Origin: Amylostereum areolatum
Taxonomy: Eukaryota; Basidiomycota; Agaricomycetes; Russulales; Stereaceae
NCBI GenBank assembly: GCA_012932865.1
Contig: SAXG01000013.1
Coordinates: forward strand, 682,001-746,000
DNA: 64,000 nucleotides
Direction: 5' to 3'
The translations under genes and the position numbers were made by a program. Each line of letters opens with the position of its first letter. Position 1 is the stretch's first letter. The notes beneath the pieces were generated by a model. That model worked only from the letters and a program-made list of their open reading frames with translations. It did no database searches and was not told the DNA's origin. Below are positions 1 through 40,200 of the stretch, one piece after another.

Positions 1-357
1 ATGATCCTGAAAATACAGGCTATGGGCAAGAAAGCGCAACGTGGGACGCGATGGAGGGGCCTAAAAGGACTCGTGAGTGGATTCAGGAAGGCTACAGAGG
101 ATCGGAGGTGAAGAACAAGAGCAAGAGAGTGTGAATGTTTGCCTCTATTTGCCGGTGCCTTCAGCGACCCGTGTCACAGTGGCGTCACGAGCCATTGTCG
201 AGTAACGGTCACTCATGCAGCGAAGTTCGGACAACGATTCCGCAAGGTTGAATTATAACATAGACCGTGCGCACAACCATGCACACAAGCATAACAGATG
301 TATGTGAACATGTATGTGAACCGTACATAGATATATCCTGGAAGCATCCTACGATGC

Positions 358-3300
358 CTAGCGCGGCGACTGAGGATGTCCGCTCATCAGCTTGTTGAGC
401 AAACTCTGCCTTTGAGGTGTCTCCGAGAAAAGCGCGCGAACGAGCCTCACGAGCTCGTCCCTCTCAAAATCCACTAACGCTCCTTCATCGAACAAGTATC
501 CGACATCGGCCAATGACGCCTCCTTTTGAATACCGACATATAGCGTCAGTATACGCTACAAGTACCAAGAGCACATACGCACCAAAAGCTCGGAAAGATA
601 TGAGAATTTGAGCCATGAGGGGACATACGCCACCACGAGCGACGGCTAAGATCATATAAGCATCTATCCACTGATGAATGTAGATGCAAACAAATGCATA
701 CCTGTTCTGGATCATCCAGGAAGAGCCCCTCCAACGCGTTCAAAATGCGACACAGCTCGCTCAGCCGATGCGACTCAACCTCCGTGATGTCCGAGATTGC
801 CAATACATCGTCCAGCATCTGTACCAGCGCCGCATCGACAACCGCACCTACTGCGGTGAAGTATTTGGTTTTGCTCAGCACGGCCTGCATTCAAGCATCA
901 GTTCCCGATGGTGAAGATGTCTTCCAAAGAGACAGACCTTCCACCGTCGCGCGATATCTCGAACCTGGGTCACCACACGCATCACCGCTGCCTCGCACTC
1001 GTCAAATCGCTCCTGGTCCCCTGTGCCTACAAACCCCTCCGCTTCCGCCATAACATCAGCAACAGCCTCGTTTTGTGCATCCTGCCGTATTCCGATGAGC
1101 ATAACATACAGCGTAACATAAACCAAAAAACTCACGATAGTATGTTCGAACCAACTCTCTCCTACTACCCTGAGTCTCTCCGCGGCCTCCTCCAATCGCT
1201 CCTTTTCCTTCGTCTCCCTCGCCATATGCGCTGCCCACCCGGCTCAAATACGCGCAATCGTTCGCGAAGAGCATCGGCCTTTCCGCTGATGACGCCAGCG
1301 TGTCCGCGAACTTGACTGAGTACAGAGCGCGGAACAGGTCGAGAGTTGAGACGGCCGTTTGGAACAGCAGCGCGCCTCGAGCATGTACCATACGTCCGAA
1401 GACGTCGACGGCACCCTCCAGCTCCTCGCCCTCATGCAGCGCTGCCTCTGCTGCCTCCTTGACATCGCGCGCCCGAGCTGAGACGGCATACGTCTCTTTC
1501 GCCACCACAGGCTCCTGAACGATCCTCACGTCGGGCACCGCAGGCTTTATCGGCACGGTGATTTTCTTCGGGCGGGAGGAGGAACCCTTAACAGGGGTAG
1601 GGCGGTGGCGGTGGGTGCGCGACCGACTGACTCGATACTTGGCTGGGGTGTATGTATTGCCTTACCCTTGTTGGCGATCCTCTCGAGACGGGTCAGGCGT
1701 TTGGGCGCGGATGGAGATTGAGGTGACGGAATGAAGGTGCGGGTGCGGGTTGTGGTACTGCTTCTCCCCAAGGATCATCGTCCCATGCTGAGCTGCCATC
1801 CGTAGACTCTGATGCGCTTGTCGGCAGCGATGCGTCACCCAGAGACTCGTCCGTACCGTCGTCGTCGTCATTCCACCCCCATGCATCTCCAGGGTCTTCA
1901 TCCTCTTGCGCCGACGAGGTACTCTCTTCAGCCGTAGGTATTGGTGGTGGCGTTGGTGGAGAAGCGGGTGACTCCTCTGCTGGCTCATCGTCGAAGCCCC
2001 ATCCGTCCTCCTCTCCCTTTTCCTCCTCAAATCCCCAGCCATCATCCTCTCCAGAAACCGACGCTGTAGTTGCCGGTGGATTTGGATGTGTTTTTGAGGG
2101 AGCAATCGAAGAAGGAACTTTGGTCACCCCATTGGTGGTATCTTGACTAGGCGCCTCCAGCTCTACCATGATACGCCCTCCGTCCTTCCTCGCGTCCGAC
2201 GATGACCCTTGCCATCTCCAGCAATTGTGCTCGCCTCTTCCGCTCAAAGTGTGTCGCAATGCCCTGTACCCAGGCCTTCACCTCTCTGTCTCTTCCATCC
2301 TGTCCCAGTACACCCACGATGTACTGCTCTTCCACATTCTCCGCCAGTCGGGCAAGCTCCAGGAAGGATGGAAGCCCCTGAAAGCGAGGAAGGTATGAGA
2401 GGGACCAAGAACTGTTGGAGGAGCGCCTTCGTCAATGGTTTGCAAAGGGAGCGTTTGAAGGCACTGGACTCGGAGGGTGGGAGCGCAGGGAAAAGATTCG
2501 TGTGCAAAAAATCAAATATGGACGTGAGGATTGGCTAGACGCAATGACACGTCCTCGTCGTTGGGTGGCGCGGGGAAGATGGAAAGTGACTGCTGTGGTG
2601 CCCCCGATGCGTCTTTGGCGAAGTTGTGGGATACAAAGCTCGGTTGTGTGGCGATAAATTCGATGTAGTGTGTGGATATATCGCGCCGCAGGGTGGTAAG
2701 GTGGTTCGAGAGGGAAGCCGGTGTGAATGAGGAGAATATGGAGTTAAGCGCGAGGATAGCTGAGGAGTGACGGACTACAAGAAGGATTAGCTGATAGTCC
2801 TTCGAGGTACGGAGGTGGCACACCTTGCACAGAAGGCTGAATAGTCATATTCCGCGGGCTTATGACAACCGCTCGCGAGTATGCGTCACCGAGCTGTTCA
2901 TCGACGCGGTCCTTGACCGCGCGGAAGGCGTTCTATGACAAAATGTAGCGCTATCGCGAGAGTAAAAAAAGGGGAGCTTACCTTCAGCTGAAGGAGAGGC
3001 TCTGAAGCGAGCTAAAGCCGTAGGTGCTGCTGCAATTGTTTTCTCCAGATGACTCGAAGCCTCCACCGCCTCTGGCAGTCGGCCCTCGTTGGCCAACCCG
3101 TCCAAATGGTCAAACTCCTTCCTACATAAAAGCAGGTATTCCAACGCTTCATGTACGACAGCCGCGTCTCGCGTGCGTTGTGCAAGGGCCGCATGTTCAG
3201 AAAGCGCTTTCAGAAGTGTCGGTACAAGGCCTGTCTTGACAGCAGTTCAGCCTGGCGCTTTGAAGGACAAGGACCAACGTACCTTCTGGATTAGACACTG

Positions 3301-3635
3301 CATCGTTCAAGGCATCCACATTGGTAGTCAGTACGCCCAGACGCTCCTGCACGGACTTGGACGAAGCAAGCTGGTGCTCGAATGCGGGGAGGTCGGTATG
3401 TATACGGTCATGGATCTGCGTCTGTACAAGGGGTTCTGCACTCCGGCCGAGCATAGAAAGCTTATCACCGCACCTTGGTTTGAAGGATGGTTTCATCAAG
3501 TTCTACGATCCATGATGAAGCAAGTTCCGCTGTGAGAGTCTTTGTCGTTGCGGAAGCGACCTTGGACAGTATTTGGGTGGATATATCTTGAGGTACACGC
3601 TTGCGTGGGAGGTGGGATGGTACAGGAAAGGCCAT
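358..3635 (-). CDS. ZW10: ZW10/Dsl1-type ER tethering and kinetochore protein
   Basis: Multi-exon gene read from ATG at 3635 (MAFPVPSHLPRKR) to TAG at 358. Several exons join at GT-AG introns, for example after QTK near 3497 and after SAEG near 2982. The C-terminal exons (LDDVLAISDITEVESHRLSE, then DFERDELVRLVRALFSE) match the conserved end of ZW10. The family is a subunit of the Dsl1/NRZ complex that tethers COPI vesicles at the ER and, in animals, also acts at kinetochores. The middle (about 1700-2110) is an acidic, disordered loop with DGWGF, DAWGWNDD and WDDDPWG motifs, like the COPI-binding loop of yeast Dsl1. The frame changes at the four-C run 2375-2378 and near 2531, each fixed by removing one base. 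RFC3 lies 258 bp upstream on the same strand. The ZW10 call is strong; exact exon borders in the middle are less certain. Confidence 0.82.
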
Positions 3636-3893
3636 AGTTATATGTGTAAGCTCATGAAGTGAAGGTTCTGACAGTGAGAGACTCAGAAAGGGTCTCGACA
3701 GGAGTTTGCGAGGTGAGCCTCGCGGCGCGGTCAATCCAAATTCCAGAACGCGAAACGCGACCGCCACGTCGCGCTCCTCGGAGAGTCACGTGCAGGTCAG
3801 AACAGGGTTTACACAAAGTTCATATATTCGGGAGAACGCAATGTGATAGATACAGGGAGGAAGAGAACAGGGAGGTTGCATAGTAAGGGCTGG

Positions 3894-5286
3894 TTATGAA
3901 TTGGCTTTCGCCGTCAGCTCGACCGCGTTCTTGAAGACTCCCAGCAGCGCTGTTAACTGAAGCTTCTCGCTCGCCCCACTTGCCAGCCGATGCCTGAAGG
4001 TTGTCAGTTCTTGCACCGTCGGCCAAAACAATGAAAGAGCTCACTCTGTTGTCGCAATATGGTCAAGGAGGTATACCCTCGCCGCCGGCGGGAATTCAAT
4101 TGTCTCGACGTATTCGTATGTCCCAATGAGGAGGTCTTGCAGCGCCAAACCGCGTTCAGTCTTCAGTGAGTTGATAACTGACAAGAGATTAGTAGGTGTT
4201 CTTCAAAAGAAGGATGTGAGCGTACGCTTGTATGACGTGAGGAACTCGTCAGCGAGCATCGAATTCACTACTGTCTCAATATCGGAAGGGTGCGGGTTCC
4301 CTGTGCACGCGTAGACTTCCGACTCGTCAGTCTGGTCGTACGCGGCATGACATGCCTGAAGTACATTGAGCGCTCTTCGCATATCGCCCTTGGACAGCTT
4401 CAAGAGAGCAGCCTTGCCGCCATCCGTCAGCTTCACTCTGTGCTACAACTCAGCCAACGAAAGGACCAAGGGAAAACAATCAAAGCGCACCCTTCCGCCT
4501 CCACGACATGCTTCAGTCTCCGTTCGACTTCCGGTATGGGCAGTGGCGAAAACCTGAAGCGCGTGCACCGACTTTGAATGGCGGGAATGATCTTGTTGAC
4601 GTAATTGCAGATGATACAAAAGCGGACGTTCTTGGTGTACTGTTCTATGACGCGTCGGAGTGCGGCTTGAGCGGCGGTAGTCATCATGTCGGCTTCGTCG
4701 AGGATGATGAGCTTGTACCCTTTTGAGAAGAGTGTACGCGTCTCTGCAAACTGCTTGATTCGTTCACGAACCACGTCAATGCCGCGGTCGTCTGAAGCAT
4801 TCAGCTGATAAGGGGTCAGCGCGCTGTTACATTTCAGGCTGAACGCCACACACCTCCAGGATTTGCTTCCGGAAGTCAGGGCCGTAGATGCGACGCGCCA
4901 CGGCAAGGATAGTTGAGGTCTTTCCTGTACCAGGAGGTCCATAGAAAAGGAGGTGAGGAAGTCGATTCTTCTCTATGAATTTCTCGACTGTAGTGATCGT
5001 CAGGAGAAGAACACCACGCATAGGTAGAGGGATACGCACTGGTGCTGGTGATGTCTTTGTGTGATACAACGTCGTCTAATGACACCGGACGATATTTCTC
5101 GACCCTTTGAGGCTTTATGATGAGATTGACAGGGGGACGAGATAGTACTTGTTGGATAGCTTACCATGGCAATGTCTCGTCGTGCTCCCTCTCATACCCG
5201 TCGCCTCGGTCGACTCCTTTTCCTTTGGCTTTGGCCGAAAGGGAAGGAAGCTCGTGGTCCGATTGCATTTCTTGGTCACTATCCAT
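3894..5286 (-). CDS. RFC3: Replication factor C subunit 3 (clamp-loader AAA+ ATPase)
   Basis: Small subunit of the RFC clamp loader, which opens the PCNA ring and loads it on primer-template DNA. It corresponds to yeast Rfc3 and human RFC5. The start at 5286 gives [17 protein letters not shown], then [16 protein letters not shown]. Visible motifs in order are Walker [10 protein letters not shown], the RFC box LNASDDRGI, Walker [11 protein letters not shown], the SRC arginine-finger motif [10 protein letters not shown], and the [12 protein letters not shown] sensor-2 region. It ends in [13 protein letters not shown]. All exons join in frame through short introns (for example 5050-5003 and 4851-4806), so this gene is intact, unlike several neighbours. 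The start lies 395 bp from the divergent ubiquitin gene, so the two probably share a promoter region. Confidence 0.93.
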
Positions 5287-5681
5287 GATCTACGATTCGG
5301 AGCCGGGCTTGGTTTTGGTTGAGCGGAGTAGGGAAGACTGAAAGACGCGTTCTGACTCTCCGAGTTCAAAATCAAGACGCGAAGCGTGACACGCGTCGAC
5401 GCGTCAAACCTCACGTAAGCGTCTCGCACGATCACGAGCAGGACACGGTAGGTCGGGCCGAGTGACTGACCAGCAGCAATCAGAGTTGAAGCTCCGCCGG
5501 ACATCTCCGAGAGCAGAGTGGACGGGACGAGTGGAATATTCTCTGTTTTTCTTTACAAGCCGGCACTTGCCTTCGTTAACGACTCCATCGTTGAATCCGT
5601 TGGATAGACAGAGGCGTCCGGTGAGCACAGTTAACACGTTCACGATGCGCAGATTCGACTGACACGCGTCTTACCAGTAAA
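5287..5681. promoter_or_regulatory. Divergent intergenic region between RFC3 and UBI3
   Basis: A 395-bp interval separates the start codons of RFC3 (minus) and the ubiquitin-S27a gene (plus). It must contain the core promoters and 5' leaders of both. I see no clear TATA box and no further gene. Short ORFs here on either strand do not resemble proteins. Confidence 0.5.
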
Positions 5682-6386
5682 ATGCAGATTTTCGTCAAAA
5701 CGTACGCCTTGTGGTATCGGTGCACCTGGGACTTTACTGACCCTGTGACTGTGCAGCCTCACGGGTAAGACCATCACCCTCGAGGTGGAGTCTTCGGACA
5801 CCATCGACAATGTGAAGGCCAAGATTCCAGGACAAGGAGGGGTGCGTCTTTTGCTTTCTTGCCTATAGTTGTTATGCTCATCTCCCATACCTTTGTAGCA
5901 TTCCCCCTGACCAACAACGCCTGATCTTCGCCGGAAAACAGCTTGAGGACGGTCGCACCCTCAGCGACTACAACATCCAGAAGGAGTCCACCCTTCATCT
6001 CGTCCTCCGCCTCCGCGGTGGTGCTAAGAAGCGCAAGAAAAAGACCTACAACGTTCGTTTCCGGTTACCCTTACCCTGCGGATCACCCTCTAACCACGGG
6101 ATTTTCTTTCAGACTCCCAAGAAGATCAAGCACAAGCGCAAGAAGGTCAAGATGTCCATCTTGAAGTACTACAAGGTTGAGTCGGACGGCAAGATCAAGC
6201 GTCTTCGCCGTGAATGCCCGACCCCTACCTGCGGCGCTGGTGTCTTCGTACGTTCCCCACCTCCCTGCATCTCCTGGAGCCACTAACACTATCCTTTAGA
6301 TGGCCTTCCACCACGATCGCCAGTACTGCGGCAAGTGCGGGCTGACCTACACCTTCCAACCTGGCACCAAGCCTCCTGTTGTCTAA
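5682..6386 (+). CDS. UBI3: Ubiquitin-40S ribosomal protein S27a fusion
   Basis: The precursor is cleaved after LRLRGG to give ubiquitin and ribosomal protein eS31 (S27a). Exon 1 reads MQIFVKT, and introns follow at about 5702-5757, 5841-5898, 6055-6114 and 6247-6299. The ribosomal part is lysine-rich ([29 protein letters not shown]). It ends in a four-cysteine zinc ribbon (CPTPTCGAG, then YCGKCG) and stops after KPPVV. One base is out of place: 5827-5828 reads CC where AAG ATT CAG needs a single C, shifting the frame inside ubiquitin after KAKI. Every other codon matches the near-invariant family, so an extra base in the consensus is the likeliest cause. A truly frameshifted copy is possible but would be lethal if it were the only source of S27a. 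Confidence 0.93.
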
Positions 6387-13783: not shown

Positions 13784-16700
13784 TTAGAAGACTGCGCCAC
13801 AGATAGGAAGACCATGCTTACAACTGGTCTCTATTGCATTCACGTAGGAATCCACATCCCACAGACGAACCGTCCGGTCTCTCGATCCCGACGCGATGAC
13901 TTTGCCATCGGGAGAAAATGCGACGGAGTAGACCGGCCATTCATGCCCTCGCAACGGCTCCCCCACCGGCTCCCCCGTCATCGCATCCCATATGCGAATC
14001 GTCTCGTCTGTCGAACCCGAAACGATGCGTGTGCCGTCAGGTGAGAATGCGACAGAGTAGACTGAAGTTGTGTGCCCTCGCAACAGCTCCCCCACCGGCT
14101 CCCCCGTCCTCGCGTCCGAAATGCGAATCGTCTTGTCGGTCGAGCCCGAGACGATGCGTGTGCCGTCTCGTGAGAATGCCACGGATGGGACCCAGTATGT
14201 GTGCCCTCGCAACAGCTCCCCCACCGGCTCCCCCGTCCTCGCGTCCGAAATGCGAATCGTCGAGTCGCACGAGCCCGAGACGATGCGTGTGCCGTCAGGC
14301 GAGAACGCGACGGACCGGACCGAGGCTGTGTGCCCTTGCAATGGTTTCCCCACCTTTTTCCCGGTCTGCGCGTCCCATAGGCGAATCGTCCTGTCGTCCG
14401 AGCCCGAGACGATGCGTGTGCCGTCAGGTGAGAATGCGACGGACCAGACCCAGTCTGTGTGACCTCGCACTGGTTCCCCCACCATCATCCCGGTATGCGC
14501 GTCCCAGATGCGAATCGTCTTGTCCCACGAGCCCGAGACGATGTGTTGGCCGTCTGGCGAGAATGCGACGGAAGATACTGCCCAATCGTGTCCGGGGAGA
14601 ACCAAGTATTCTGCGCAGGTAATGCTTGTCAGCCGACATCGCGAGAGAAAGGAGAGGGATCTACTCACCATTTGTGAAATCCCTGAGAAACCGGTCTGCG
14701 ATCTGTCGGTTCCTCTTTCCTTCGACCTTCGGCATATTACGCCGTTGCCTAGCGCGGAACCCGAAGGTCTTGAGAGATTCCCCTTCGGCGATTCTTTCCA
14801 TGACGTTCATGACCAAGTCTAGGTCTACGAACCATTGGGCGCCCTCCGCCTTCGGCAGCTGAATTACATCGGCAACCTTGGCCTCGCGAAGAGCCAGCTG
14901 CCCTTCCCCTGGAACATGCAGGCTCAGCAGGGTCGCTTGCTTGTGAACACACAATCGCCTACCTGACTGTGCCATATCGTACATCTCGCGCAAGTGTTTC
15001 CTTACTGCATCGGCGTCGCCGTTCGGGTTCTTGTAGTCCTCGATGATGCCGTGCACCGAGTCGTACCAATCGTACTCCACCATGCTTTGGTCCGGCCCAG
15101 TGTCCGGCGTGGGTTTCCGGAGCGACTCCCAGAACATCTTGCGGTCTTCACCAGGCGGGCATGCTTTTGGCACGTACGTAGTGTTGACATTGTCTCCTTG
15201 TTCGCTATTTTGGTCGGGAATAAGGCTGCAGTGGATTTTTTGACCCTTCTGGATGATACGTCCAGCGCCGCAATGAGGCCTAGGGATTTACACATCAGAC
15301 ACCTTTCCAGACAGAGGTAGCGCATATACGCACCTGCGAGTCGACTCGGTTCCCGTCCGCTGGTACAATAGTCGCCTAAGGGGTAAGAGCTCCAGGAGCC
15401 ACCAGATCCACGTTAGCGATTCACGGACTTCGGTCTTCTCTCCGGGTTTGAGTTCTCGTTGGATGGGATGCAGGCGGAGCCCCGCAGCGGCGGCCTCGAA
15501 ACACATCCACCTCAGTGGCGGCCGAGCCCGATCCATGTCGGGGTTCTCCACGTTTCCTCCCCCGCTATTGAAAAAAAAATTAGTGATACAGCGATGGCCC
15601 CATCGGTAGCACTCACATGTCGGAATGGGTCCCTGCAAACCAAACTTCTTTTGTGTGAATATACCTGTTCGTTGCGCTTTCTGTCTCGTCCGTCGTCTTC
15701 CGGGGCATCTGCACAATCGGCATCATCTCACAAGCCATTCCGCCGCCAGCTGCTTCGGTCGCCTCGTTCATTACGTTGGACCCATCAGCATGTTGCTGGG
15801 CTACATCTGCAGCGAGACGTTCGTTTAAGTGGGCAGCTGACAAGGAAGTGCCCCCATAGGCATATTCGGGCAGGAACTTGACGCGACGTTCGTCCAGCGC
15901 CATCGCATGTCGGAAGTAGCAGGCTTGATGCATTCCGTCCGTCGTCCCGGGGAGAGACTTGTCGCGCACCGTCCCGACTGACGACACCGTGTCCCTGTAT
16001 GCACTTTCATCGATACAAGAGCTCCAGTCAACAGAAAGACGGGCCACGTACCATGTACCAAAGAAATGTATGTTGACCAAGCGCGAGAATACCTCCCGGA
16101 AGTGCTTAGCCATCTGCTCGGCAGAGGGTGTGGATTTCGAGGACTTGAATACTGAGGGTACGAGTTTGCTAACTTTCCCCAGATGCTCCAGGTCTGCTTC
16201 TTCTTCTTCTCGCCACATGCTGCGTACAGCTGGTACGCACTGGCCAAGAGAGTGAGCCTCGACAACGTCCAGCAAACCATGCGAGCTTACAATGGGATCT
16301 GCTCTTGGTTCCCCTTCTTGATCAACCCGACCTGCGGACAGTTCACTTAATGGTCAGCGCCGCACGACGGCTGGGGAGCTATGTAATCCACCTTGTCCAT
16401 CATGGCCGCCAGAGCGCGTACTTGATTATGATACGCACCGCGAGAGAAGCCTAGACTTTCGCGGTCAAAAACAATCTCCCCGCAAGGGGAATGAACGCGC
16501 ACCGAATAGGTAAATACGGTCGCCAGGCTGATATTGCTCCGATAGCCACAGGTAGGCGGCGATGATGATCCTTTCGAAGTTCCTGTGGCCAAGGTAAGAA
16601 AAGAGCGAGTCTCGCAGAGAAACATAACGCACCATGCAATCGCCATGTCGATCTTGTGGCATATCACCTGCATTATATAGCTCAGGGATTTCCATGACGG

Positions 16701-17127
16701 CTCCGCGTACGTCCCGATTCCGCTGTTGTAGAACGTGAGTTGCTCGCGGCCTTCGTCATCCTGGGATTTGATCAGACTATAGAGCTCGACGACGTTCGTA
16801 TTCTGGTCGTCGCGGCACTAGGTGAGTATTGATCGTGAACATACAAAGACGTTACACACGTTTATTCCAAACTGGTTCGAGGTCCCGTCGATACAGACGA
16901 TCAAGTTGCGTCCGGTTTTGGATTCGAAACAGCTGCACAACTTGATGGTGGCCGTGGGAGCTTTTAAGACGTTAGGACGCAAACGGCCAGTGTAGCGGCC
17001 GCCATCTTCCGGTCCTGCAGTCCCTTGGGCTAGCGTAGCTGTGTATTGCAGTTGTCAGAAGAAGCGCCAAAGGAAATGAGATGAACGCACGGATGGGTTG
17101 ATATGAAGGGCCTGCTCGGTCCGCCAT
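13784..17127 (-). CDS. DUF2235 (Tle1-like) hydrolase fused to six WD40 repeats (copy B)
   Basis: The start at 17127 gives [12 protein letters not shown], then an intron, then [15 protein letters not shown], the DUF2235 opening. Further exons give [32 protein letters not shown] and [20 protein letters not shown]. The nucleophile motif is GFSRGAY. DTVSSVG supplies the likely Asp, [17 protein letters not shown] follows, and [11 protein letters not shown] supplies the likely His. The family includes bacterial Tle1 phospholipases; lipid hydrolysis here is inferred. After a linker ([21 protein letters not shown]) come six WD40 repeats, one fewer than in C and D. Two adjacent repeats have IRISDARTG, with Ser for the WD tryptophan. 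The nucleophile loop carries two extra residues ([10 protein letters not shown], bases 16424-16430) absent from C and D. No NACHT domain, signal peptide or membrane segment is seen. A last short intron after the final repeat is possible. Confidence 0.85.
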
Positions 17128-17739
17128 GGGGAAGAAGGAGGAGGGTTCAAAGTAGGAGGGAGGAAGAGTTCCTAGGGCGGTGATAGGGAGAGGAAAAGAG
17201 GTGACATCAGAAATGACTCCCCGCGGTGAGCTTCATGTATGCACGTCCTCCCAGCGCTCCTGAAACGTATCGAGCACGGTGATAGCCACTCGGAGGAAGG
17301 CGCACGTGTGCGGGGAAAGCAAAAGGTGATCGTGTTCCCACTACATCCAAGAATGATAAGTAGCGACACGGGAGAGAATCCGCTGAGTAATGAAGGTGGC
17401 CAAACGACGAGTGACCTGGAAAAACGGGGCGGTCCTGCATCTGGAGAGCGACGGGTACAGTCTAGAGAGCTATGAACGGCAGATCAGACGGGAAACGCTG
17501 AAGCACGCACCATTCACACAACGCAGCCGAGGCGCACATTCCAGTGAAGGCGTTCCTTGGAACGAGCACAGCAATTGGTCGCGCTCGAGTCCGTATTCCT
17601 GGTCCTTCGCAGTTCGATAAAAGGCACCGGCAACGAGTATCAGAGAAGATGGGCTCTTGTCTTGAACGCAGTGGCCGAACTGGGCATCTGAAGAGGAAGT
17701 CGCGGAGCCATACGGCTTCGCGTTGACCTGATTCCCTCT
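17128..17739. promoter_or_regulatory. Upstream region of copy B, homologous to copy C
   Basis: The region upstream of copy B aligns with 25218-25573 plus 31898-32090 upstream of copy C. Markers are GAGCTTCATGTATGCACG and GCTGAAGCACGC, followed by a GGAACGAGCAC block. Site 17490-17497 (GGGAAACG) is the empty counterpart of the 8-bp duplication around the DUF6589 element. No TATA box is obvious. It presumably holds the promoter. Confidence 0.5.
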
Positions 17740-21728: not shown

Positions 21729-24700
21729 TTAAAGTACTGCTCCACAGATAGGAAGACCATGCTTACCACTGGTCTTCGCCTCATCTACATAGGAATCCAC
21801 ATCCCACAGACAAACCGTCTCATCTGTCGAGCCCGACGCGATGGCTTTGCCATCGGGAGAGAATGCAACGGACGTGACCCAATGTGTGTACCCTTCCAAC
21901 GGCTCCCCCACCGGCTGCCCCTTTGTCGCATCCCAAATGCGAATCGTCACGTCCCACGAGCCCGAGACGATGCGTGTGCCGTCAGGCGAGAATGCGACGG
22001 ACTGGACCAGATCTGTGTGCCCTCGCAGTGGCTCCCCCACCGGCTCCCCCGTCCTCACATCCCATATGCGAATCGTCTCGTCTTTCGAACCCGAAACGCT
22101 GTGTTTGCCGTCAGGCGAGAATGCGACGGACCAGACTGGACCTGTGTGCCCTCGCAACGGCTCCCCTACCGGCTCCCCCATCCTCGCATCCCATATGCGA
22201 ATCGTCGAGTCGATCGAGCCCGAGAAAATGCGTGTGCCGTCAGGCGAGAATGCGACGGACAGGACCGAATGTGTGTGCCCTCGCAACGGCTTCCCCACCG
22301 GCTCCCCTGTCATTGCATCCCAGATACGAATCGTCTCGTCGCGCGACCCCGAGACGATGCGTGTGCCGTCAGGCGAGAATGCGACGGACAGGACCGAACG
22401 TGTGTGCCCTTGCAATGGTTCCCCCACCGTGTTCCCGGTCTGCGCGTCCCATATGCGAATCGTCCTGTCTTCCGAGCCCGAGACAATGCGAGTGTCGTCA
22501 GGCGAAAATGCGACGGACATGACCCGGTCTGTGTGACCTTGCAATGGTTCCCCCACCATCTTCCCGGTATGCGCGTCCCAGATGTGAATCGTCTTGTCCC
22601 ACGAGCCCGAGACGATGTGTTTGCCATCTGACGAGAATGCGACGGAAGATACTGCCCAATCGTGTCCGGGGAGAACCAAGTATTCTGCGCAGGTAATGCT
22701 CGTTGGCTGACATCGCCAGAGAAAGGAGAGGGATGTACTCACCATTTGTGAATTCCCTGAGAAACCGTTTTGCGATCTGTTGGTTCTTCTCTCCCTCGGC
22801 CTTTGGCATGGTACGCCGTTGCGTAGTGCGGAACCCGAAGGTTTTGAGAGACTCCCCTTCGGCAATCTTTTCCACGATGTTCATGACCAAGTCCAAGTCT
22901 TCGAACCATTGGGCGCCCTCCGCCTTCGGCAGCTGAATTACATCGGCAACCTTGGCCTCGCGAAGAGCCAGCTGCCCTTCCCCTGGAACATGCAGGTCAG
23001 CAGGGTCGCTTGCTTGTGAACACACAATCGCCTACCTGACTGTGCCATATCGTACATCTCGCGCAAGTGTTTCCTTACTGCATCGGCGTCGCCGTTCGGG
23101 TTCTTGTAGTCCTCGATGATGCCGTGCACCGAGTCGTACCAATCGTACTCCACCATGCTTTGGTCCGGCCCAGTGTCCGGCGTGGGTTTCCGGAGCGACT
23201 CCCAGAACATCTTGCGGTCTTCACCAGGCGGGCATGCTTTTGGCACGTACGTAGTGTTGACATTGTCTCCTTGTTCGCTATTTTGGTCGGGAATAAGGCT
23301 GCAGTGGATTTTTTGACCCTTCTGGATGATACGTCCAGCGCCGCAATGAGGCCTAGGGATTTACACATCAGACACCTTTCCAGACAGAGGTAGCGCATAT
23401 ACGCACCTGCGAGTCGACTCGGTTCCCGTCCGCTGGTACAATAGTCGCCTAAGGGGTAAGAGCTCCAGGAGCCACCAGATCCACGTTAGCGATTCACGGA
23501 CTTCGGTCTTCTCTCCGGGCTTGAGTTCTCGTTGGATGGGATGCAGGCGGAGCCCCGCAGCGGCGGCCTCGAAGCACATCCACCTCAGTGGCGGCCGAGC
23601 GCGATCCATGTCGGGGTTCTCCACGTTTCCTCCCCCACTATTGAAAATAAAATTAGTGATACAGCGATGGCCCCATCGGTAGCACTCACATGTCGGAATG
23701 GGTCCCTGCGAACCACACTTCTTTTGTGTGAATATACCTGTTCGTTGCGCTTGCTGTCTCGTCCGTCGTCTTCCCTGTCGTCTTACCGGCGGGTATCACC
23801 TCTCCAGTCGCCTCGACATCCACTGCGCTGGTCACAGCCTCGGCCGTCTCGTCGATCGTATTGGGCGCGTCGGCGGGCCGCTGGGCCACATCCGCAGAGG
23901 GTTGTTCGCCTTGCTCGGCAGCTGACAAAGAAGTGCCCCCATAGGCATATTCGGGCAGGAATTTGACACGGCGTTCATCCAGAGCCATCGCATGTCGGAA
24001 GTAGCAGGCTTGGTGCATCCCGTCCGTCGTCCCGGGGAGAGACTTGTCGCGCACCGTCCCGACTGACGACACCGTGTCCCTGGATGTATTTTCGTCGATA
24101 CACGAGCTCCAGTGGACGCAAAGACGAGTCACTTACCATGCGCCGATGAAATGTATGTTGACCACGCGCGAGAACACCTCCCGGAAGTGCTTAGCCATCT
24201 GCTCGGCAGAGGGTCTGGGTTTCGAGGACTTGAATACAGAGGGTACGAGTTTTGATAATGTTCCCCAGATGCTCCACTGGCTCGGCTTCTTCTCCTCGCC
24301 ACATGCAGCATACAGCTGGTACGCGCTGGTCATGATAGTGAGCACCGCAACGTACAGCAGGCCACGCGAGCTTACAATGGGATCTGCTCTTGGTTCCCCT
24401 TCTTGATCAACCCGACCTGCGGACAGTTCATTTGGTGGTCAGCGCCGCACGATGGATGATGAACTATGCGAATCACCTTGTCTATCATGGCCGCCAGAGC
24501 GCGTACTTGGTACGCTCCGCGAGAGAAGCCTGCACGTTCGCGGTCAGAGACAGTCTCCTTGCGAGATTCCCAAAGAGAAACGCGTACCGAATAGATAGAT
24601 GCGATCGCCAGGTTGATATTGCTCCGCTAACCACAGGTAGGCGGCGATGATGATCCTTTCGAAGTTCCTGAGTGCTGAAGGTAAGAGCAGAGCGAATCTC

Positions 24701-25217: not shown

Positions 25218-25573
25218 GGCGAAGAGAGTGGGGGTCAAAGGAAGGGGGACAGAAGAGCTCCTAGATTGGTGATGGTAGGGAGAGGAGAGGGGGAAGGGGA
25301 AAAGGGGAAAAGGTGGTATCACAAAAGAATCCCCGCGGTGAGCTTAAGTATGTACACTCCCAGCGCTCGTGAGATTCGTCGAGCATTCTGATGGTCATGA
25401 GGAAGGCGCGCGTGTACGGGAGCAGTGATCGTGATCCGACTACATCCAAGAGTAAGTTGCAACACGGGGAAAGGGACACCGAGGTCTGACGGTGGCCACA
25501 CGGTGCCTTCCTGCGTCTGGAGAGGGAGGAATACAACTTGAAGAGCCATGAACGGCTGGTCGGACGGGAAATG
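25218..25573. promoter_or_regulatory. Proximal upstream region of copy C, cut off by an insertion
   Basis: Homologous to 17128-17497 upstream of copy B. It ends in the target duplication GGGAAATG (25566-25573). The homology resumes at 31898, on the far side of the 6.3-kb element. Confidence 0.6.
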
Positions 25574-25794
25574 TAGTCTACTTTTATTAGTGACGCGCTT
25601 GTCGAGTGAGCGAGGGAGTTCGCTAAGGGGTCTTGTCAAGGCCTCGGAATGACATAATCACGAGGTGCCGAGCTGTTGTCGAAGGAAAAAAATCATTTAA
25701 TTGATCGCAATCTGAACCGCCGCAAGTCGACTCGGCTTCATTTTCCCCATCGCTCCCCACTGTTTTTCCTCCGCTCTCCTCTCTTCACATCAAC

Positions 25795-28700
25795 ATGGTC
25801 AGAAAACCACTCGACCCGGACGGCTTGCGCGCGCGAAGGGGCCGACAAAAACGTATCGACGCATGCTTGAAAGAGATCAAGAGCCGAGGCTTCAATCTCT
25901 ACGAGTTCCTCGAGGAGCTACTCACTCCGTGTGACCAAGGTGATCCACGGCGATCCCGCATACGAGTCCAAATGCTCCGTAATCTCCTCGCTGGTCATAA
26001 CGCAAACTCTTCGCAAGTCGAGCATCTCGCGGAACTCTTATACAATCATCCCTACAGCAGGCCCCGACTGGCTCGTGCATCGGCTAATCGCCCAGCAAAC
26101 GAGGCCGTCCGTCGCGATCGACGTCTCATGGCCCGCTGGCGCCTTCTCGAATGGGCCATCTGCAAGGTGGAGGAAGCTGTCAGCAAAGAGTCCGCACACG
26201 CATCGTCAAAGGAAGGTGGCCTACACATGCCGGAGTCGAAGAACAATTGGGAAACCCTCCTCGACTTTTCAATGCACGATCTCCTTCGTCATGTACAGGT
26301 CAAGCTTCCCATTCTCCTCCGTATTCTAATTGCCGCCGCATTCAAGCGGAAACATCGCCCTTCCCCGGACCCATCCAACGGTGCAGACCTGCCGCCGTCA
26401 TACGACGGATTCTTTTCTCGGCCCATCCCCACCGGCTCAGGCTCAAATCCTCGTGATCCTTTCATGGTGGGTCTTCCAGGAAAACATTATGCAAGTATCA
26501 CACTGATCACCTTTGCAGATGGTCCTCGCCGCATGCGTCGTGCTGTTGACAGCGCGCAACCGGCGCTTCAACCTTTTCCAGAGGATAGTCGGCGTCTGGA
26601 TGTTCTCCCACACGGCGCCCCATGGCATGTACGCTGTACTAGGACGTCTCGGTGTTTCGATCTCGTATACATCGGTTCTGTCATTCCTCCATGTTCTTTC
26701 CCGTTCGGCCCAAGATGTTATGCGTAAGAAGGCCCTTCGTCGCGCGTTCCTTTTAATCTACGACAACATCAATCGCATGTCGCGCGTATGGAACCCGGAA
26801 TTCGGCCAGAAGGATACTATTCACAATGGCACGGCAGCGACATTCGTCGAGCTTGAAGACTGCGACATCGAGAAAGCATTTGACATCGAAGCACTCAACG
26901 TGGCGAGGCGCGAACAGCGGCGAAGGCAGCTCACAGTTGAGAAGCTGCACGCACAAATACAATGGGACAAGTTACACTCCGTCATGGCCCTCCACTGTCT
27001 CAACATGCTCATCAATGCTGTCCCCACCCTCGCAGAACATCGCGACACGGTCCTCAAGGAGCTTCGTACGACACATGCCATGCACCGTATGCCTGAAGGC
27101 CGGAAAACAAAGGTGTCGCCGATGCAAACATCCGACTATAACGAAGGCAACACGGGCGAAAACGCTAGCGTGCTAGACGACCTCCTCTTGCGGCAGCTCG
27201 GTCTTCCGAAGGAGGAGGTGGCGCGTCTGTTGGTGATCATCGGCGGGGACCAATCAACTGTCGAAAAGCTTCGCACACTCCAAAAGTTCCTCGCGGACTG
27301 TCCGCATGGCTACCACCGTTACGGCTGGGTTTTGCCACTTATCCAGCTATGGCATATGGGCTGGGCAGATCTGGAGAGAATCCTGAACACGTTCTGGGGT
27401 TCCTCTCCAGATGATCTCTCATCGTTTCTCGCGATGAACATCATCCTCGGCCGTAAAGTCACAAACTCGAAGCGTCCAGATTATTATCCAGCACAACACC
27501 TGGTTTTCGACACGTTGACCGCAACTGTGTTGGATCTCTGGAGGTACGTGTCCCATTGTTGCCAGCTCATCTGTGCGCAGTACTGATGGACGAGGTGGTT
27601 TCTAGAATACACCTCGGCACAACAGACTTTGAGGCGCATTTCCAGAACAATGCCACCCCCTTCGGCGACCTGCTCAAGATGGCCACGGAGATCACGCAAA
27701 CATACATGACAAGCCGGGGTGTCGTAAGTGCTTGATATGGGAAGGAGGCCATGGCAAACCAGCTGTTCAAGACAGGCAACTGGTCGCCGGGACACGGAAC
27801 CGGCGAAACGACAGGCGAGACATCGCGCACGCCGACAACCGCAGATGAAGACATCCCCTCCCCCGGTGATCAGGTGCTAGTGAACTCGCTACTTCGTGTC
27901 CGCGACAGCATGTGGCATTATGTGTTCCAATGGGCGATTAGCGATGGGGACATAGGACAGGCAATGAATGTCATGGCTGTATGTTTGCCCTCATAATTCC
28001 CTTGTGCCGCCACTCACCGACAATATTTTTCAGGTATGGACATTCACGTTCATGGGCTGCGGGAAGACGAAGTACACGAACGAGCTCTTAGAGCTTGCCT
28101 GCAACTTCCTCACGGAGTACTCCCCTGAGCTCTGCCTCGCAATCATGAATAACTGGCTTTGCAACCTGTCTGGTCATCTGGGCTGCTTCTTTCCGATGGA
28201 CCTCCTCCAAGAAAAGAACATCAAGCGTCTAAAGCAGATGGCACAACGTCGAGATGCATCCTTTGGTGGTGACTTCTTCAAAAACATTGTTGCCCTTAAC
28301 ATCCGTGCTTGCATCCAATCCGTCAAGTCCATGAAGACGGCAGTCAGGCTCAATGACAAGAGTGAATCCCATACGACAAAGAAGCGCGTCGTAGCCTTGC
28401 GCGAGGCAACAAGGAAAATGGCACAACGACAACTCCATTTGTTCTGTGAAGGCCGGAGTACAGGGTGGCGCGCACAGGACGACTACTCCAAGGGCTTTAA
28501 TGGCTTTGAAGATGGAAAGCGCCTTCAAGATTTCATCGAGCGCACCATCCGGGATTCGGGTGACCTCCACGGTGCCGACACAGCAGATGTTGAGGCCGAG
28601 ATGGCGGCCGAGATGGAGGCGGAGGAATGGACACCTGTCGCGCTACCCAACATGATTGTAGATGGGATGCTCGTGTCAGCAGACGACCTCGACGAGGACG

Positions 28701-28840
28701 ACAATCTCGAGGACGGAGGGAACGAAGGTGTATTAGGGCATCAGGATGGGCAAGAGAGTTCGTCGTCAAGTGATGAGGGAGAGGAAGTCAGGGAAGACGA
28801 GTGGGACTCGGGATCTGAGGCGGATGATGAATCAGGGTAA
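25795..28840 (+). CDS. DUF6589 protein, candidate transposase of the 6.3-kb element
   Basis: Start MVRKPLDPDGLRARRGRQ. Exons are 25795-26466, 26519-27543, 27606-27977 and 28035-28840. The sequence matches the large basidiomycete DUF6589 family as I recall it. Landmarks are FLLIYDNINRMSRVWNPEFG, LHCLNMLINAVPTLAEH, LLVIIGGDQSTVEKLRTLQK, PLIQLWHMGWADLERIL, PGDQVLVNSLLRVRDSMW and TFMGCGKTKYTNELLELACN. The tail is very acidic (DDLDEDDN, SSSSSDEGEEVRE). The spaced YDN and GDQ acidic motifs recall DDE-type nucleases, which is only a suggestion. An in-frame TGA at 27733-27735 follows RGVVSA. CGA (Arg) would continue the frame, so this looks like a C-to-T change at a CpG. The alternative is an implausibly short intron (GTAAGT..., 21-24 nt). 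Confidence 0.75.
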
Positions 28841-28936
28841 GTAAGTTGTAGTCAATAGCGGTGAGAAGGGAAGGAATGCCTAGTACTGAATATGCATATA
28901 CATGAAGGTAGTAGATTAATATAAAATATAGAATGA

Positions 28937-31619
28937 TTATGTAGTAGTACCACCCTTCACGCGAACGACAGGTCGCGGTTTCGGTCTGGGCTTCTTCGGA
29001 GGTGACAGGAATGCCGGAGCAGGGATTCTGGGAGAATCTGCGGAGGGAGTTGTGCACGTATGGGTTCTTGAGGGACCAGCGCCGGTTGAACTGTTGATTT
29101 TTCGAGATGGGGAGAGAATCTGACGATGCCACATCGAAGAATTTGAGTACGACACCGATACTGATTAAAAGACACACTCACAAGGGTCTCCGGGGGAGCG
29201 AGCCGTGGGATCTTGACTCGTATGGGCTCGCGCTCCGTGGGGTTTTCGACCGCCTCCGATGTGCGTTTAGTGCCTATCGGGGACCTCAGCCGAGAGGTAA
29301 CCTGCAACAGAAACTAAACATACCAGATGGCAGTGCGCTTGAGGACTCCGCCGCAGGCTCGCGCACTTTCAATTTGACACTCTTGAACCTCGTAAGGTTG
29401 TGCTTCACCGCGTAGTCGTGTACCTTCTTCGCCTCCACTGCCGCACGCTTTGCTGCATTCTCCTCCCGACGTTTGCGGTTGTCGGTCTCGTGTCTCTCCT
29501 CCACTCGTTTCCGCATCGTTCCTATGAGATGTTCAACATCTTTCCAAAGCCTCTCACCATGTGTCGGCCACCAGCGCCATTTTTGCATACGCTGCGCGAG
29601 ATCGTCCCGCGTTTGAAGCAGGTGGAAGTTGCGGGAGATGGCACCGATGAGGCTGTCAGAGAGGAACGACTTCTCGTCAAGCGATAGAAGCTGTTGGTAG
29701 GAGGACGGGGTGATTTCCGGTGCCAAGCCATTGAGGAGTAGAGGGGAAGGGTTGGGAGGGAGGGTCGCGGATACGAGGATGCGCGCTGAGGCGCGACGGA
29801 GGGAAGACTTGAGTAGTTGGGTATCAGCAGTATTGAGCCGTTCCCATCGACAGCTTTCATCTTTGGGAGCCGATTCTTCCTGGCTAGAGTGCGTCGATGA
29901 TTCTGGGTTCACAACTGCTCGAGGATCGGGGGGGATGTCACCTGCACATGAGCTGCATGTCCCGCAGTTCTCCAGTGTCCCGGGATCGCCAAAGATAACG
30001 TTTATTTGACGGGCGATGCAGGTGCGACGAATATGGGCTGCGACGAGAAGGAGAAAGGACTTGTCGATCCCTCGAAATGTCGATGCAGAGGAGGGGGGAG
30101 AGGAGGAGGAACTGGCCTCAGGGGACACACAGGTCTTTGACTTCGTGTTCCCACGTGCGCGCCCATCACCGAGTTTGTTCTTTCTTTCTTTGTCCGCCGT
30201 CTTGTCTTCCACCTCCTCATCTACCACCATCAACTCCGTGTCTTCTACACGGTGCTCGGACGGAGGACACGTGCTTGATATATCCACCATCTCGACGTCA
30301 CCTTCGTCATCTTGCTGCCTCGGTGTCTCTTCGGACCGCAATGGTACCATGCGCGGGTCTGGTGGAACTTGTTGTATATATTCCTGTGCTATGTCACGAA
30401 CTGCTGACTTGACGTAAACGTAGGCTTTCCCTCGCCCTGGTACGTTGCGTACATTGCGCCCTATGCGCTGTTTGGTTGCTGATGCACTGTGTCCAGTGGG
30501 AAACTCGATAGTTTCTCGCACGTCTGGAGGATCGACGCCTACGTCAAGGATTGCTGTTGTGACAAAGATGCATGTATCGCGGTCAGGCTCCATGCGAAAA
30601 AGTGAGTCAAGCCCTTCTTTCTTGCATTCCGGGCAACATATGGAATGAAGATGGCGGATAATGATGCGGCCTTTAGGTTGGAGGGAGAGGGGGAGTAAGG
30701 AGCGCAGGTAGAGGGTTACACGGTGGCCGACTTCAATGGTAGGGCAGTATATCAAACGTTTTGGCGCGTCCATGACACTTTTCATGTCCGCAGGAACCGT
30801 CCAATCTAGGTCATGGAAGACATCACCCGAGTATGTGTACTCAACGTCGCGGAAGCTGATGTCAACATTTGTACGCCGAGTGTCCCGCTTGTCCAGGTAA
30901 AAGTGACCTTGTTCGAGGCCTAGGTGCTCCAAGATTCGGTTCGTTTGTGCGCCGGGCTCCACACTTGCTGATAGTGCGACAATGGTTACATGTGCTGGCG
31001 CCAGGGCACGGATTCTCTTGATCTCTTTGTAGAGAGGGCGGAACTCGGAACCCCATTCATCAACGAGATGAGCTTCGTCGACGGTGAGTACGCGCCATCG
31101 TGAGCAGAACATGTCGTTGTTCATCATTTCTGCAAACTTCTCATGTTGCAAGGATTCGGGTGCCAGGGTTATGACCTGGAACAATCCTGCTTTCGCTTCC
31201 TGCCAGAGGTCCCGTCCCTCGAGCGATGCCTGTTTGAGTGTGTCGCTGTTGATAACGAGTGAGGTAACACCCTTTCGATCGGTGTTCATGACCTGTAGCT
31301 CACGTCAGTTCTGCCTATAGACGGTCTGAAGGTACACTTCTACCAGACTCCGCTCGAGGAAGTTTGTCGGCTCGACCACCAAGGTAATCATATCCTTCTT
31401 GACTATGGCTGGCACATATATCAAGGCTGACTTTCCATCCCCTGTCGCGGTAATGCAGAAGACATGCTGCCCATTCAGGATCCGCGCGGAGTTGTGAAGC
31501 TGGAAGTCACGAAGCGGAAAGTCAAGGTGAGGAGAAACAGCGCTCTTGATTTTGTCGAGGCCTTCGGGAGATGTCCAGTCGGTATTCGGCTCCTCGGGCG
31601 AGCCAGATCTAGTATCCAT
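28937..31619 (-). CDS. RecQ-like superfamily 2 DNA helicase of the 6.3-kb element
   Basis: Start MDTRSGSPEEPNTDWTSPE at 31619. One clear intron (about 31338-31290) follows ERSLV. Motifs in order are FQLHNSARIL, Walker A TATGDGKSALIY, motif II VDEAHLVDEW, motif III ALSASVEPG, motif IV LIYCPTIEVG, a Cys pair CCPECKKEG, motif V ILDVGVDPPDV and motif VI KQRIGRNVRN. A second Cys cluster, ENCGTCSSCAG, resembles the RecQ zinc-binding segment. The C-terminal part is lysine-rich and probably splits over two or three short exons ending PKPRPVVRVKGGTTT near 28937. The gene is convergent with DUF6589, and the pairing suggests a role in replication or resolution during transposition. The helicase call is firm; the C-terminal exon structure is tentative. 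Confidence 0.8.
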
Positions 31620-31897
31620 TAGTTCATCCTATAGCAATAAATAAAAAGAGTGTCGAGAGCAGGATTGCTAGCGTTGTAAGGTGTTCAATGAAGCTTTGCA
31701 CGCTACTGGATTTGCGGTATAATTTCTCTCCCTATTATCTAATTACATGCACATGATATGCCGACGTCGGCAACGCGCGCTAATCAAGCTCCCTCACTCG
31801 CCCGGCAACGGCCCCCTGAAAAAAAGCAGACGCCAAATACGTAGGATCCTGAGCTTGCGAAGGTTGACGGAGGATTTCGTCTGCCTCGGGGAGACTA

Positions 31898-32100
31898 GGG
31901 AAATGCTGAAGCACGCCCCCTTCACACCACGCAGCCGCCGAAGGTTGATTGTTGTGTGCACGAGGCGCACATTCCGCGAAGAAGATGTTCTTCGGAACGA
32001 GCACGGCAGTTGGTCGTGGCGTCGCGCTCGAGTCCGGATTCCTGGTTCTTCGCCATTTGAGAACGAGACGCCGGTCGTGAGCCTCCGAGAGAATGAGCAC
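31898..32100. promoter_or_regulatory. Distal upstream region of copy C, displaced by the insertion
   Basis: It begins with the right target duplication GGGAAATG and continues GCTGAAGCACGCCCCCTTC. It is homologous to 17498-17640 upstream of copy B, with shared GGAACGAGCAC and GCGCTCGAGTCCG blocks. Confidence 0.6.
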
Positions 32101-37296: not shown

Positions 37297-40200
37297 TTAC
37301 CACTGGGTCGCCGCATCCACATACGACTCCACATCCCAGAGACGGACCGTGCCGTCGTCCGAGCCCGACACGATGACTTTGCCATCGGGAGAGAATGCGA
37401 CAGACAAGACCCCATTTGTGTGCCCTTGCAATGGCTGCCCCACCGGCTCCCCCGTCCTCGCATCCCAGATGCGAATCGTCTCGTCTCTCGAGCCCGAGAC
37501 GATGCGTGTGCCGTCAGGTGAGAATGCGACGGACAAGACCCAGTGTGTGTGCCCTTGCAATGGCTCCCCCACCGGCTCCCCCGTCCTCGCATCCCAGATG
37601 CGAATCGTCTCGTCACCCGAGCCCAAGACGATGCGTGTGCCGTCAGGCGAGAATGCGACGGAGTAGACCGGATTTGTGTGCCCTCGCAATGGTTCCCCCA
37701 CCGACTCCCCCGTCCTCGCATCCCATATGCGAATCGTCTTGTTGTCCGAGCCCGAGACGATGCGTGTGCCGTCAGGCGAGAACGCGACGGACCAGACCCA
37801 GTGTGTGTGCCCTTGCAATGGTTTCCCCACCGGCTCCCCCGTCCTCGAATCCCATATGCGAATCGTCTCGTCGTCCGAGCCCGAGACGATGCGTGTGCCG
37901 TCAGGCGAGAACGCGACGGACCGGACCGAGGCTGTGTGCCCTTGCAACGGTTCCCCCACCATCTTCCCGGTCTGCGCGTCCCAGATGCGAATCGTCTCGT
38001 CGCCCGAGCCCGAGACGATGCGTGTGCCGTCAGGCGAGAACGCGACGGACCAGACCGAGTCTGTGTGCCCTTGCAATGGTTTCCTCACCATCTTCCCGGT
38101 ATGCGCGTCCCAGATGCGAATCGTCTGGTCCCACGATCCCGAGACGATGTTTTTGCCGTCTGGAGAGAATGCGACGGAAGTCACTACCGAATCGTGTCCG
38201 GAGAGAACCAGGCATTCTGTGCAGGTGATGCTCGTCAGCTAACATTGCCATAGGAAGAAGAGGGATGGACTCACCCTTCGTAAATTCATCGAGAAAGCGT
38301 TGTGCAACCTTTTGGTCCTCGATTCTATCGCTCGAGAGGAGCTTGGAAAGTTGTCGTCGTCGTGTGGCCCGAGATCCGAACGTGGTAGAAGAGCCCTGAT
38401 CGGTCATTTTTTCCATGATATTCATGACCAGATCCAGCGCTCTGGAGCTGAGGTTTTCGGCGGTGTGTAGAATCCTGTCGAGGGCATTGGCCTGGCGAAC
38501 AGCTAACCGACCTTGCGCTGGAAGACACGATTTAGCATTCCGTATGTATCAAATCCCAGGAGACTCACCTGAAGACGCGAAATCATATATTTCGGACAGA
38601 ATGGCCTCTTTCCTCTGGGCGCTTGCACCGGAACTGTTGTAGTCCTCTACAAGATCTCGCGCGCGGTCGTACGGATCGTATTCCACAAGTTCCGCATCCT
38701 TTTCGTTAGATTTCAGGTTTTGCAATGTCAACCACCACGACGGTTTGCCTGGCCAGCATGCCTTCGGCACATAGTCACCTTGCTCTCCAGTATCCAGTTG
38801 ATCGACACTGTTTCGAATTGGGAGAATTGGCAGAAGGCTGCTGTGTATCTTCTGTCCCTCCTGGATCAGACGGCTGGAGCCGTAGTGAGGCCTGAGTATA
38901 TTTCGATTAGAAGTCCCTCCCATAAGCCGCCTATACACATACCTGGATGTCACGCCATGCGCCGTGAATGTATCCATCCAGATGGCAAGAATGTCCACGA
39001 TCCACAGGTACCAGTCCAGAGCTTCCGATTCGTGAGGATTGAACATCGCCTCGGCCATCCCCTTTTTTTTCAATGTGTTAAACAGCCACCAGATGGCCAC
39101 GATGTTCAGGATCCACCAAGCCCAGGTCAAGGATCCGCCGAGATTAAATATCCCCGTAGGCGTGCTGTTCGCGCTCGGCTCACACCACAACCACACGATG
39201 TTCAGGATCCACCAACACCGCGTCAAGGATTGGTAAACGTCAATATTCTCCCAGGCAGTCGTGCCCATACCCTCCGATCCATACGACAATCGCTTGATGG
39301 GCAAATATTCCAGGACCCACCAATGCCCGATCAAGGATTCGTGGACCTCGATCCTTTCGTCAGGTGTGAGGTCTCGATCAATTGTGCGGAGGTGAAGTCC
39401 TGCGGCGGCAGCTTCGAAGGCCATCCACCTTAGTGAAGGACGTGTGCGATTCATGGCGGCATTCTCCACGTTTCCGCCCCCGCTACGAAGGGATCTTAGC
39501 GACGGCAACGATTATTCTAAGTTAGCGCCACTTACATGTCAGAATGTGTCCCTGCGAACCAAACCTCTTTGATGTCCGAAGACTGGCTTGATTGGCTGAT
39601 CTCCGTCTTCCCTCGTGGTGCTCCCGTATCGCGGTCTTTCGTGCGTGGAGGTTGGTGAGAAGGGTCCAGCTCGTCCACAGATGCTCCTGTCTCCGCCTGC
39701 GACGATGATTTGACCGGCCCATCGTCGGGCCTCAGCGTGGTTCTTCCATGCGCGTATTCAGGGAGGAACTTGACGCGGCGCTCGTCCAGCGCGAGCCCGT
39801 GGCGAAAATGGCAGACTTTGTTCATCCCATCGATCGTCCCGGGGAGACTCCTGCCACGGAACAACCCGATTGACGATACGGTATCCCTGCCACAGATTAC
39901 CTCAATATGTCGACATCAAAAGCAGTGCGAGTCGGCTGACTTACCAGCAACCCACAAAGTGTATTGGGACGTTGCGGGAGAACGTGTCCTTGAAGAACTG
40001 GGCCATCGTCTTCTGTGCGTGTGCGTCCGATGATCCGGTAGGAGCGTCTCCAGTGCGAGGATCCGCGTAGAGTTCGAATGCACTGCGAGTGCGGACAGTC
40101 GACAATCAGTTCAGCCTTGACATGAAGAGATGAGCGCGCAAACTTACAAAGGAATTTGCCCTTCATTTCCCTCGTTGATCAATCCCACCTGCCAGGATAT

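Follow-up and report, generated by a model that had tools for sequence, protein, structure and literature searches.

A 64,000-nucleotide stretch of the Amylostereum areolatum genome (GenBank assembly GCA_012932865.1, contig SAXG01000013.1, positions 682,001 to 746,000 of the forward strand; hereafter the window) contains a 6324-bp insert that encodes a DUF6589 protein and a RecQ-family helicase. We consider it very likely that this insert is an autonomous cut-and-paste DNA transposon with DUF6589 as its transposase and the RecQ-family protein as a helper, most likely kin to the AcademH transposons as an 8-bp lineage. This reading is based on the 8-bp target compared with an empty paralogous site, on five near-identical copies and on short, end-only copies that also carry 8-bp duplications. 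The analysis adds a probable role for DUF6589, that of a DDE transposase, and the existence of sister lineages that differ in duplication length (8 or 9 bp).

A precisely bounded, recently mobile element

The element starts with TAGTCTAC at 25574 and ends with GGAGACTA at 31897, and GGGAAATG abuts it on both sides (window coordinates; no strand is assigned to these features):

25566..25573, left target-site duplication GGGAAATG
25574..31897, the transposable element as a whole, 6324 bp, exact ends common to five full-length genomic copies
25574..25625, DUF6589-side terminus, starting TAGTCTAC; also present in short non-autonomous copies (48-54-bp matches at one end in the ten short elements compared)
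31734..31897, RecQ-side terminus, ~164 bp, final letters GGAGACTA; retained by the short non-autonomous copies too
31898..31905, right target-site duplication GGGAAATG
16289..17610, uninterrupted paralogous promoter of gene copy B, which represents the empty site (78.6% identical through the junction)

The perfect terminal repeat comprises TAGTCT only (6 bp), and a candidate likeness lies further in, between positions ~3-45 of the DUF6589-side end and ~67-109 from the RecQ-side end. The insertion target lies upstream of a gene, copy C, that is related to the adjacent copy B gene, the latter with a Tle1-like PF09994 domain. The flanks of the insert, joined minus one duplication, match window positions 16289-17610 (query 1-1348 of 2400) in an alignment that spans the junction (query position 1200); copy B contains the target once only at this point (GGGAAACG). 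Because the alignment runs through the joined flanks with one target copy, we regard 16289-17610 as the empty site. An earlier note on this DNA had proposed a 6324-bp insert with an 8-bp duplication and TAGTCT termini in the promoter of copy C, the uninterrupted promoter of copy B as its empty site, and a convergent DUF6589 protein and RecQ-like helicase as its genes. Boundaries, empty site and gene content all stand (PF20231, E 3.1e-116; DEAD, E 1.6e-14, RecQ family by sequence), the copy C promoter being a putative one since a Pfam scan of the copy C gene fragment returned no match.

The host assembly spans 57.1 Mb in 182 contigs, and searching it for copies with TAGTCT ends and 8-bp duplications recovered five full-length matches (query 1-6324) as well as relatives. 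The five copies differ from each other at 5-12 positions, and every one of them is flanked by a perfect 8-bp duplication, all different (GGGAAATG, CCGGCGAG, CATACCTT, CTCACAAC and ACCTCATC); a sixth copy (C113) is broken, being truncated and rearranged. The helicase frame is open in all five copies and the DUF6589 frame in four, with two 1-base insertions in L003; both genes are open in four copies. The element moved recently, and the DUF6589 and RecQ genes, which share one set of ends, moved jointly in five copies. With near-identical copies whose frames are open, the reason for a helicase in certain cut-and-paste transposons can be tested directly.

The window copy has seven changes that no other copy shares; four of them (27733, 28243, 28513 and 29223) are transitions from CpG to TpG or CpA, as expected if that copy is cytosine-methylated.

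Of 21 short matches in the genome 14 were examined, and ten of these have both ends together with an 8-bp duplication (nine perfect, one with a mismatch). These ten retain ~50 bp at one end and ~150-170 bp at the opposite one. Two longer relatives, L010 (6271 bp) and L014 (7564 bp), are likewise delimited by TAGTCT ends within perfect 8-bp duplications. Two further elements form an inverted pair (L011/L012, C1:2627026-2641659; 6249 and 6248 bp, 99.9% alike), neither of which has a matching duplication at its own flanks; their left flanks are reverse complements of each other for exactly 8 bp (AGCACAGG), and the same holds for the right flanks (CCCGCATC). Recombination between two separate insertions that inverted the DNA between them would leave such a pattern, so that both members would fit an 8-bp duplication. 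A segmental duplication was considered for this pair and set aside, as exchanged 8-bp duplications fit the inversion better.

In L014 (1681-9244) the termini are swapped relative to the genes: DUF6589 is next to TAGTCTCC and RecQ next to TAGTCTAC, the opposite of the window element. A 1385-bp element is nested in it (L014 1782-3166); this has inverted ends, TAGTGTTGCC, and an 8-bp duplication of its own, GCTCGGTC. No TAGTCT ends with an 8-bp duplication were found in L013, a 90% relative of L014; there, a 1878-bp element (L013 1143-3020) adjoins a DUF6589-RecQ relative, its ends being TAGACT and its duplication, AGTTACACC, 9 bp long.

DUF6589 as a candidate transposase

The DUF6589 gene and its proposed catalytic residues are located as follows:

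25795..28840, + strand, DUF6589 gene, 945 amino acids, proposed DDE transposase (Pfam PF20231, E 3.1e-116; structure model and fold search)
25795-26466, 26519-27543, 27606-27723, 27763-27978 and 28034-28840, + strand, its five exons, splice sites by eye
26762..26764, + strand, proposed catalytic D306 (YDNINR), in 44/45 aligned proteins, inside the predicted protein strand 301-316
27248..27250, + strand, proposed catalytic D468 (GGDQST), in 44/45 aligned proteins, right after the predicted protein strand 463-466
28211..28213, + strand, proposed catalytic E737 (DLLQE; E750 in P0001), in 42/42 ungapped rows with 3 gapped, retained in a divergent family with 9-bp duplications

PF20231, whose Pfam entry gives the function as unknown, is the sole family reported for the protein by a Pfam scan that filtered out most matches above E 0.1. 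A protein 98% identical to the window protein is recorded from Amylostereum chailletii. A structure model was built on a homologue with 98% identity, and in a fold search with this model the hAT transposase Hermes was closest, while the P element and RAG1/Transib fell into the same fold class with lower Z than Hermes. DUF6589 is a probable RNase H-fold DDE transposase that, judged from the model, resembles Hermes and the P element, with a long helical insertion and the proposed triad D306/D468/E737. The conservation of this triad was read from 45 of 51 protein matches (P0004, P0031, P0041, P0043, P0045 and P0047 excluded), and on the predicted fold its residues are candidates for the catalytic acids of a DDE enzyme. 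Of the general marks of DDE cut-and-paste elements, the window family has terminal inverted repeats, of which the 6 bp TAGTCT are perfect, and a duplication fixed at 8 bp in 5/5 copies. Another glutamate, E707 (P0001 numbering), was tried as the third catalytic residue and is conserved in 42/44 ungapped rows of the 45 proteins, but it is not retained in the 9-bp family; E737 was preferred because the DLLQE glutamate is kept there. From the end-residue ranges of the fold search we take this glutamate to correspond to Hermes E572.

A profile of the 45 proteins retrieved 41 proteins, the named ones all fungal, and reached no animal relatives. No relatives turned up in viral contigs or in prokaryote genomes when these were scanned. 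Cnidarians and molluscs have DUF6589 proteins too, and both groups have Academ. In the literature searched, represented by the records and excerpts available, no paper gives DUF6589 by name, and among papers containing the string PF20231 none is on transposons by title or abstract. A Pfam domain of unknown function with 58 loci in one genome gains from the present reading a testable role as DDE transposase.

The accessory genes of the P element and of RAG1/Transib differ from those of the window element. A hAT element that acquired a helicase would share with it the 8-bp duplication, the usual hAT length (PMC12730594; cited papers are represented here and below by excerpts), Hermes as the closest fold, and a predicted RNase H fold with helical insertion. 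We give this explanation very little credence: no hAT Pfam domain was reported for the DUF6589 protein under the filters given above, identity to the listed Hermes chains is 6-9%, and the P element and RAG1 were matched as well. The helicase also sets the window element apart from hAT.

Systematic pairing with a RecQ-family helicase

The second gene of the element is convergent with the first:

28937..31619, - strand, RecQ-family helicase gene, 839 amino acids (DEAD and Helicase_C matches; sequence comparison)
31619-31344, 31292-29324, 29273-29182 and 29119-28937, - strand, its four exons, splice sites by eye

Its Helicase_C match (E 5.8e-4) is under the Pfam cut-off, and the assignment to the RecQ family was made by sequence. 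Across the host genome, 112 PF20231 matches collapse into 58 loci and 52 matches of the window helicase into 48 loci, all of these counts being lower bounds in which copies within a family are not independent. For 39 of the 48 RecQ-like loci there is a DUF6589 locus no more than 8 kb away. The expected number is ~0.8 if loci are treated as independent, but several belong to the same family as copies. These 39 pairs comprise 31 convergent, seven divergent and one same-strand arrangement. Outside the RecQ-like loci there are 75 Helicase_C matches, of which five are within 8 kb of DUF6589, each adjoining a DUF6589 locus without RecQ partner. Nine helicase loci are unpartnered, and four of them may be broken elements, since they lie within 1.5 kb of a 9-bp-type terminus. 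The pairing of DUF6589 with RecQ is systematic, and within the A. areolatum genome such pairs recur inside TAGTCT-type boundaries with duplications.

Both genes appear to be maintained by selection, as far as their sequences indicate. In the two family pairs with unsaturated synonymous sites, the ratio of nonsynonymous to synonymous substitution rates (dN/dS) is 0.054 and 0.042 for DUF6589 exon 2 and 0.193 and 0.166 for helicase exon 2; synonymous sites are saturated or nearly so in the remaining pairs. Protein distances of DUF6589 and helicase correlate at 0.99 (ten pairs from five families), and the two genes therefore seem to have travelled together. A RecQ gene that is a mere passenger, such as a helicase of host or subtelomeric origin that was captured and plays no role in transposition, is quite unlikely given the low dN/dS in two pairs, the parallel divergence of both genes, and a pairing that extends across divergent families and arrangements, although subtelomeric RecQ genes are known in fungi (PMC7473861) and 19/58 DUF6589 loci have no RecQ neighbour.

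In the mechanism we propose, the DUF6589 transposase would pair both ends, cut at the TAGTCT ends and join them across an 8-bp stagger, of which the duplication is observed and the chemistry conjectured. The RecQ-family helicase would be a needed helper that probably unwinds or remodels the strand-transfer or donor-gap intermediate for repair.

The divergent pairs are located at C111:357126, C128:834530, C145:119929, C170:57471, C66:426878, C70:22972 and C94:20258; two locus pairs compared among them have one common edge that ends GAGGCTAG, not TAGWCT. Locus tags in other species gave no adjacent DUF6589 and RecQ tags, with only two tagged RecQ relatives in two species.

A sister family with 9-bp duplications

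A second DUF6589-RecQ family of 6764 bp has TAGACTCGAACC (TAGACT) ends and seven near-identical copies (L059 1335-8098 and six other genomic places), six of them with perfect 9-bp duplications and the seventh with none. It carries PF20231 and a helicase whose DEAD and Helicase_C matches are under the Pfam cut-offs and which shares 27% identity over 152 residues with the window helicase. The near identity of its copies points to recent activity of this family too. One genome thus holds related helicase-paired transposon lineages of differing duplication length. An 83-bp miniature in L072 (C105:287672-287791) resembles both ends of the 9-bp family and has a 9-bp flanking repeat, GATTCCGTT.

Relation to known transposons

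Helitrons leave no target duplication and combine Rep and helicase in a single protein, whereas the window element has 8-bp duplications, and the Pfam scan reported no Helitron_like_N match in either the DUF6589 protein or the helicase. Kolobok elements target TTAA, in contrast to the varied 8-bp duplications of the window family (0/5 TTAA). The likeness to KolobokH lies in its being, like the window element, a fungal DNA transposon that carries a RecQ helicase (PMC9587614).

AcademH, a group of the Academ superfamily reportedly going back to Kojima in 2020, is by description the likeliest relative or parent group, because the sister DUF6589-RecQ family has 9-bp duplications and AcademH is fungal and helicase-encoding; the element is not filed as AcademH. 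As described in the excerpts, AcademH has 9- or 10-bp duplications and is separated from AcademX by the helicase (PMC10045372), and low-copy AcademH is present in Basidiomycota, Ascomycota and Mucoromycota (PMC10799480). AcademH and the window element are alike in being fungal DNA transposons that encode a helicase beside the known or proposed transposase. It is rather probable that the element is simply an ordinary AcademH, with DUF6589 the Academ transposase under another name and 8 bp a minor variation, a matter of classification that overlaps with the reading we prefer; the published descriptions, the 9-bp sister family with the same gene pair, and an average length of 5565 bp for bivalve Academ elements (PMC10294476) are in keeping with it. 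What weighs against such a placement, and against the AcademH kinship in our own reading, is that duplications in the window lineage are 8 bp, not 9 or 10, in 5/5 window-family copies, in L010 and L014 and in the C1 pair, Academ being compared by description only.

The earlier note had suggested that the gene pair may define a superfamily of its own. This claim is weakened, since helicase-encoding fungal AcademH and KolobokH are described in the excerpts, and retains in its favour that 8 bp misses the AcademH length. A DUF6589-RecQ superfamily that stands apart from Academ and comprises 8- and 9-bp lineages seems unlikely to us: published descriptions of AcademH agree with the helicase and with the 9-bp sister family, although DUF6589 is of unknown function in Pfam, had no second Pfam family reported beside it in the protein, is absent by name from the literature searched, and goes with 8-bp duplications in the TAGTCT lineage. 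Equally doubtful is DUF6589 as its own transposase superfamily with RecQ as typical partner, in which sister lineages would have shifted between 8- and 9-bp spacing along with one terminus base (TAGTCT versus TAGACT). Rather than a wholly new kind, the window element is probably an AcademH-related variant.

Neighbouring genes

Seemingly related gene copies surround the insertion, and in them lie part of a Tle1-like PF09994 gene and two long runs of highly alike WD40 repeats (window 15613-16275, 21729-22865 and 37297-38184). A 295-amino-acid frame at 13784-14671 looks WD40-like by eye.
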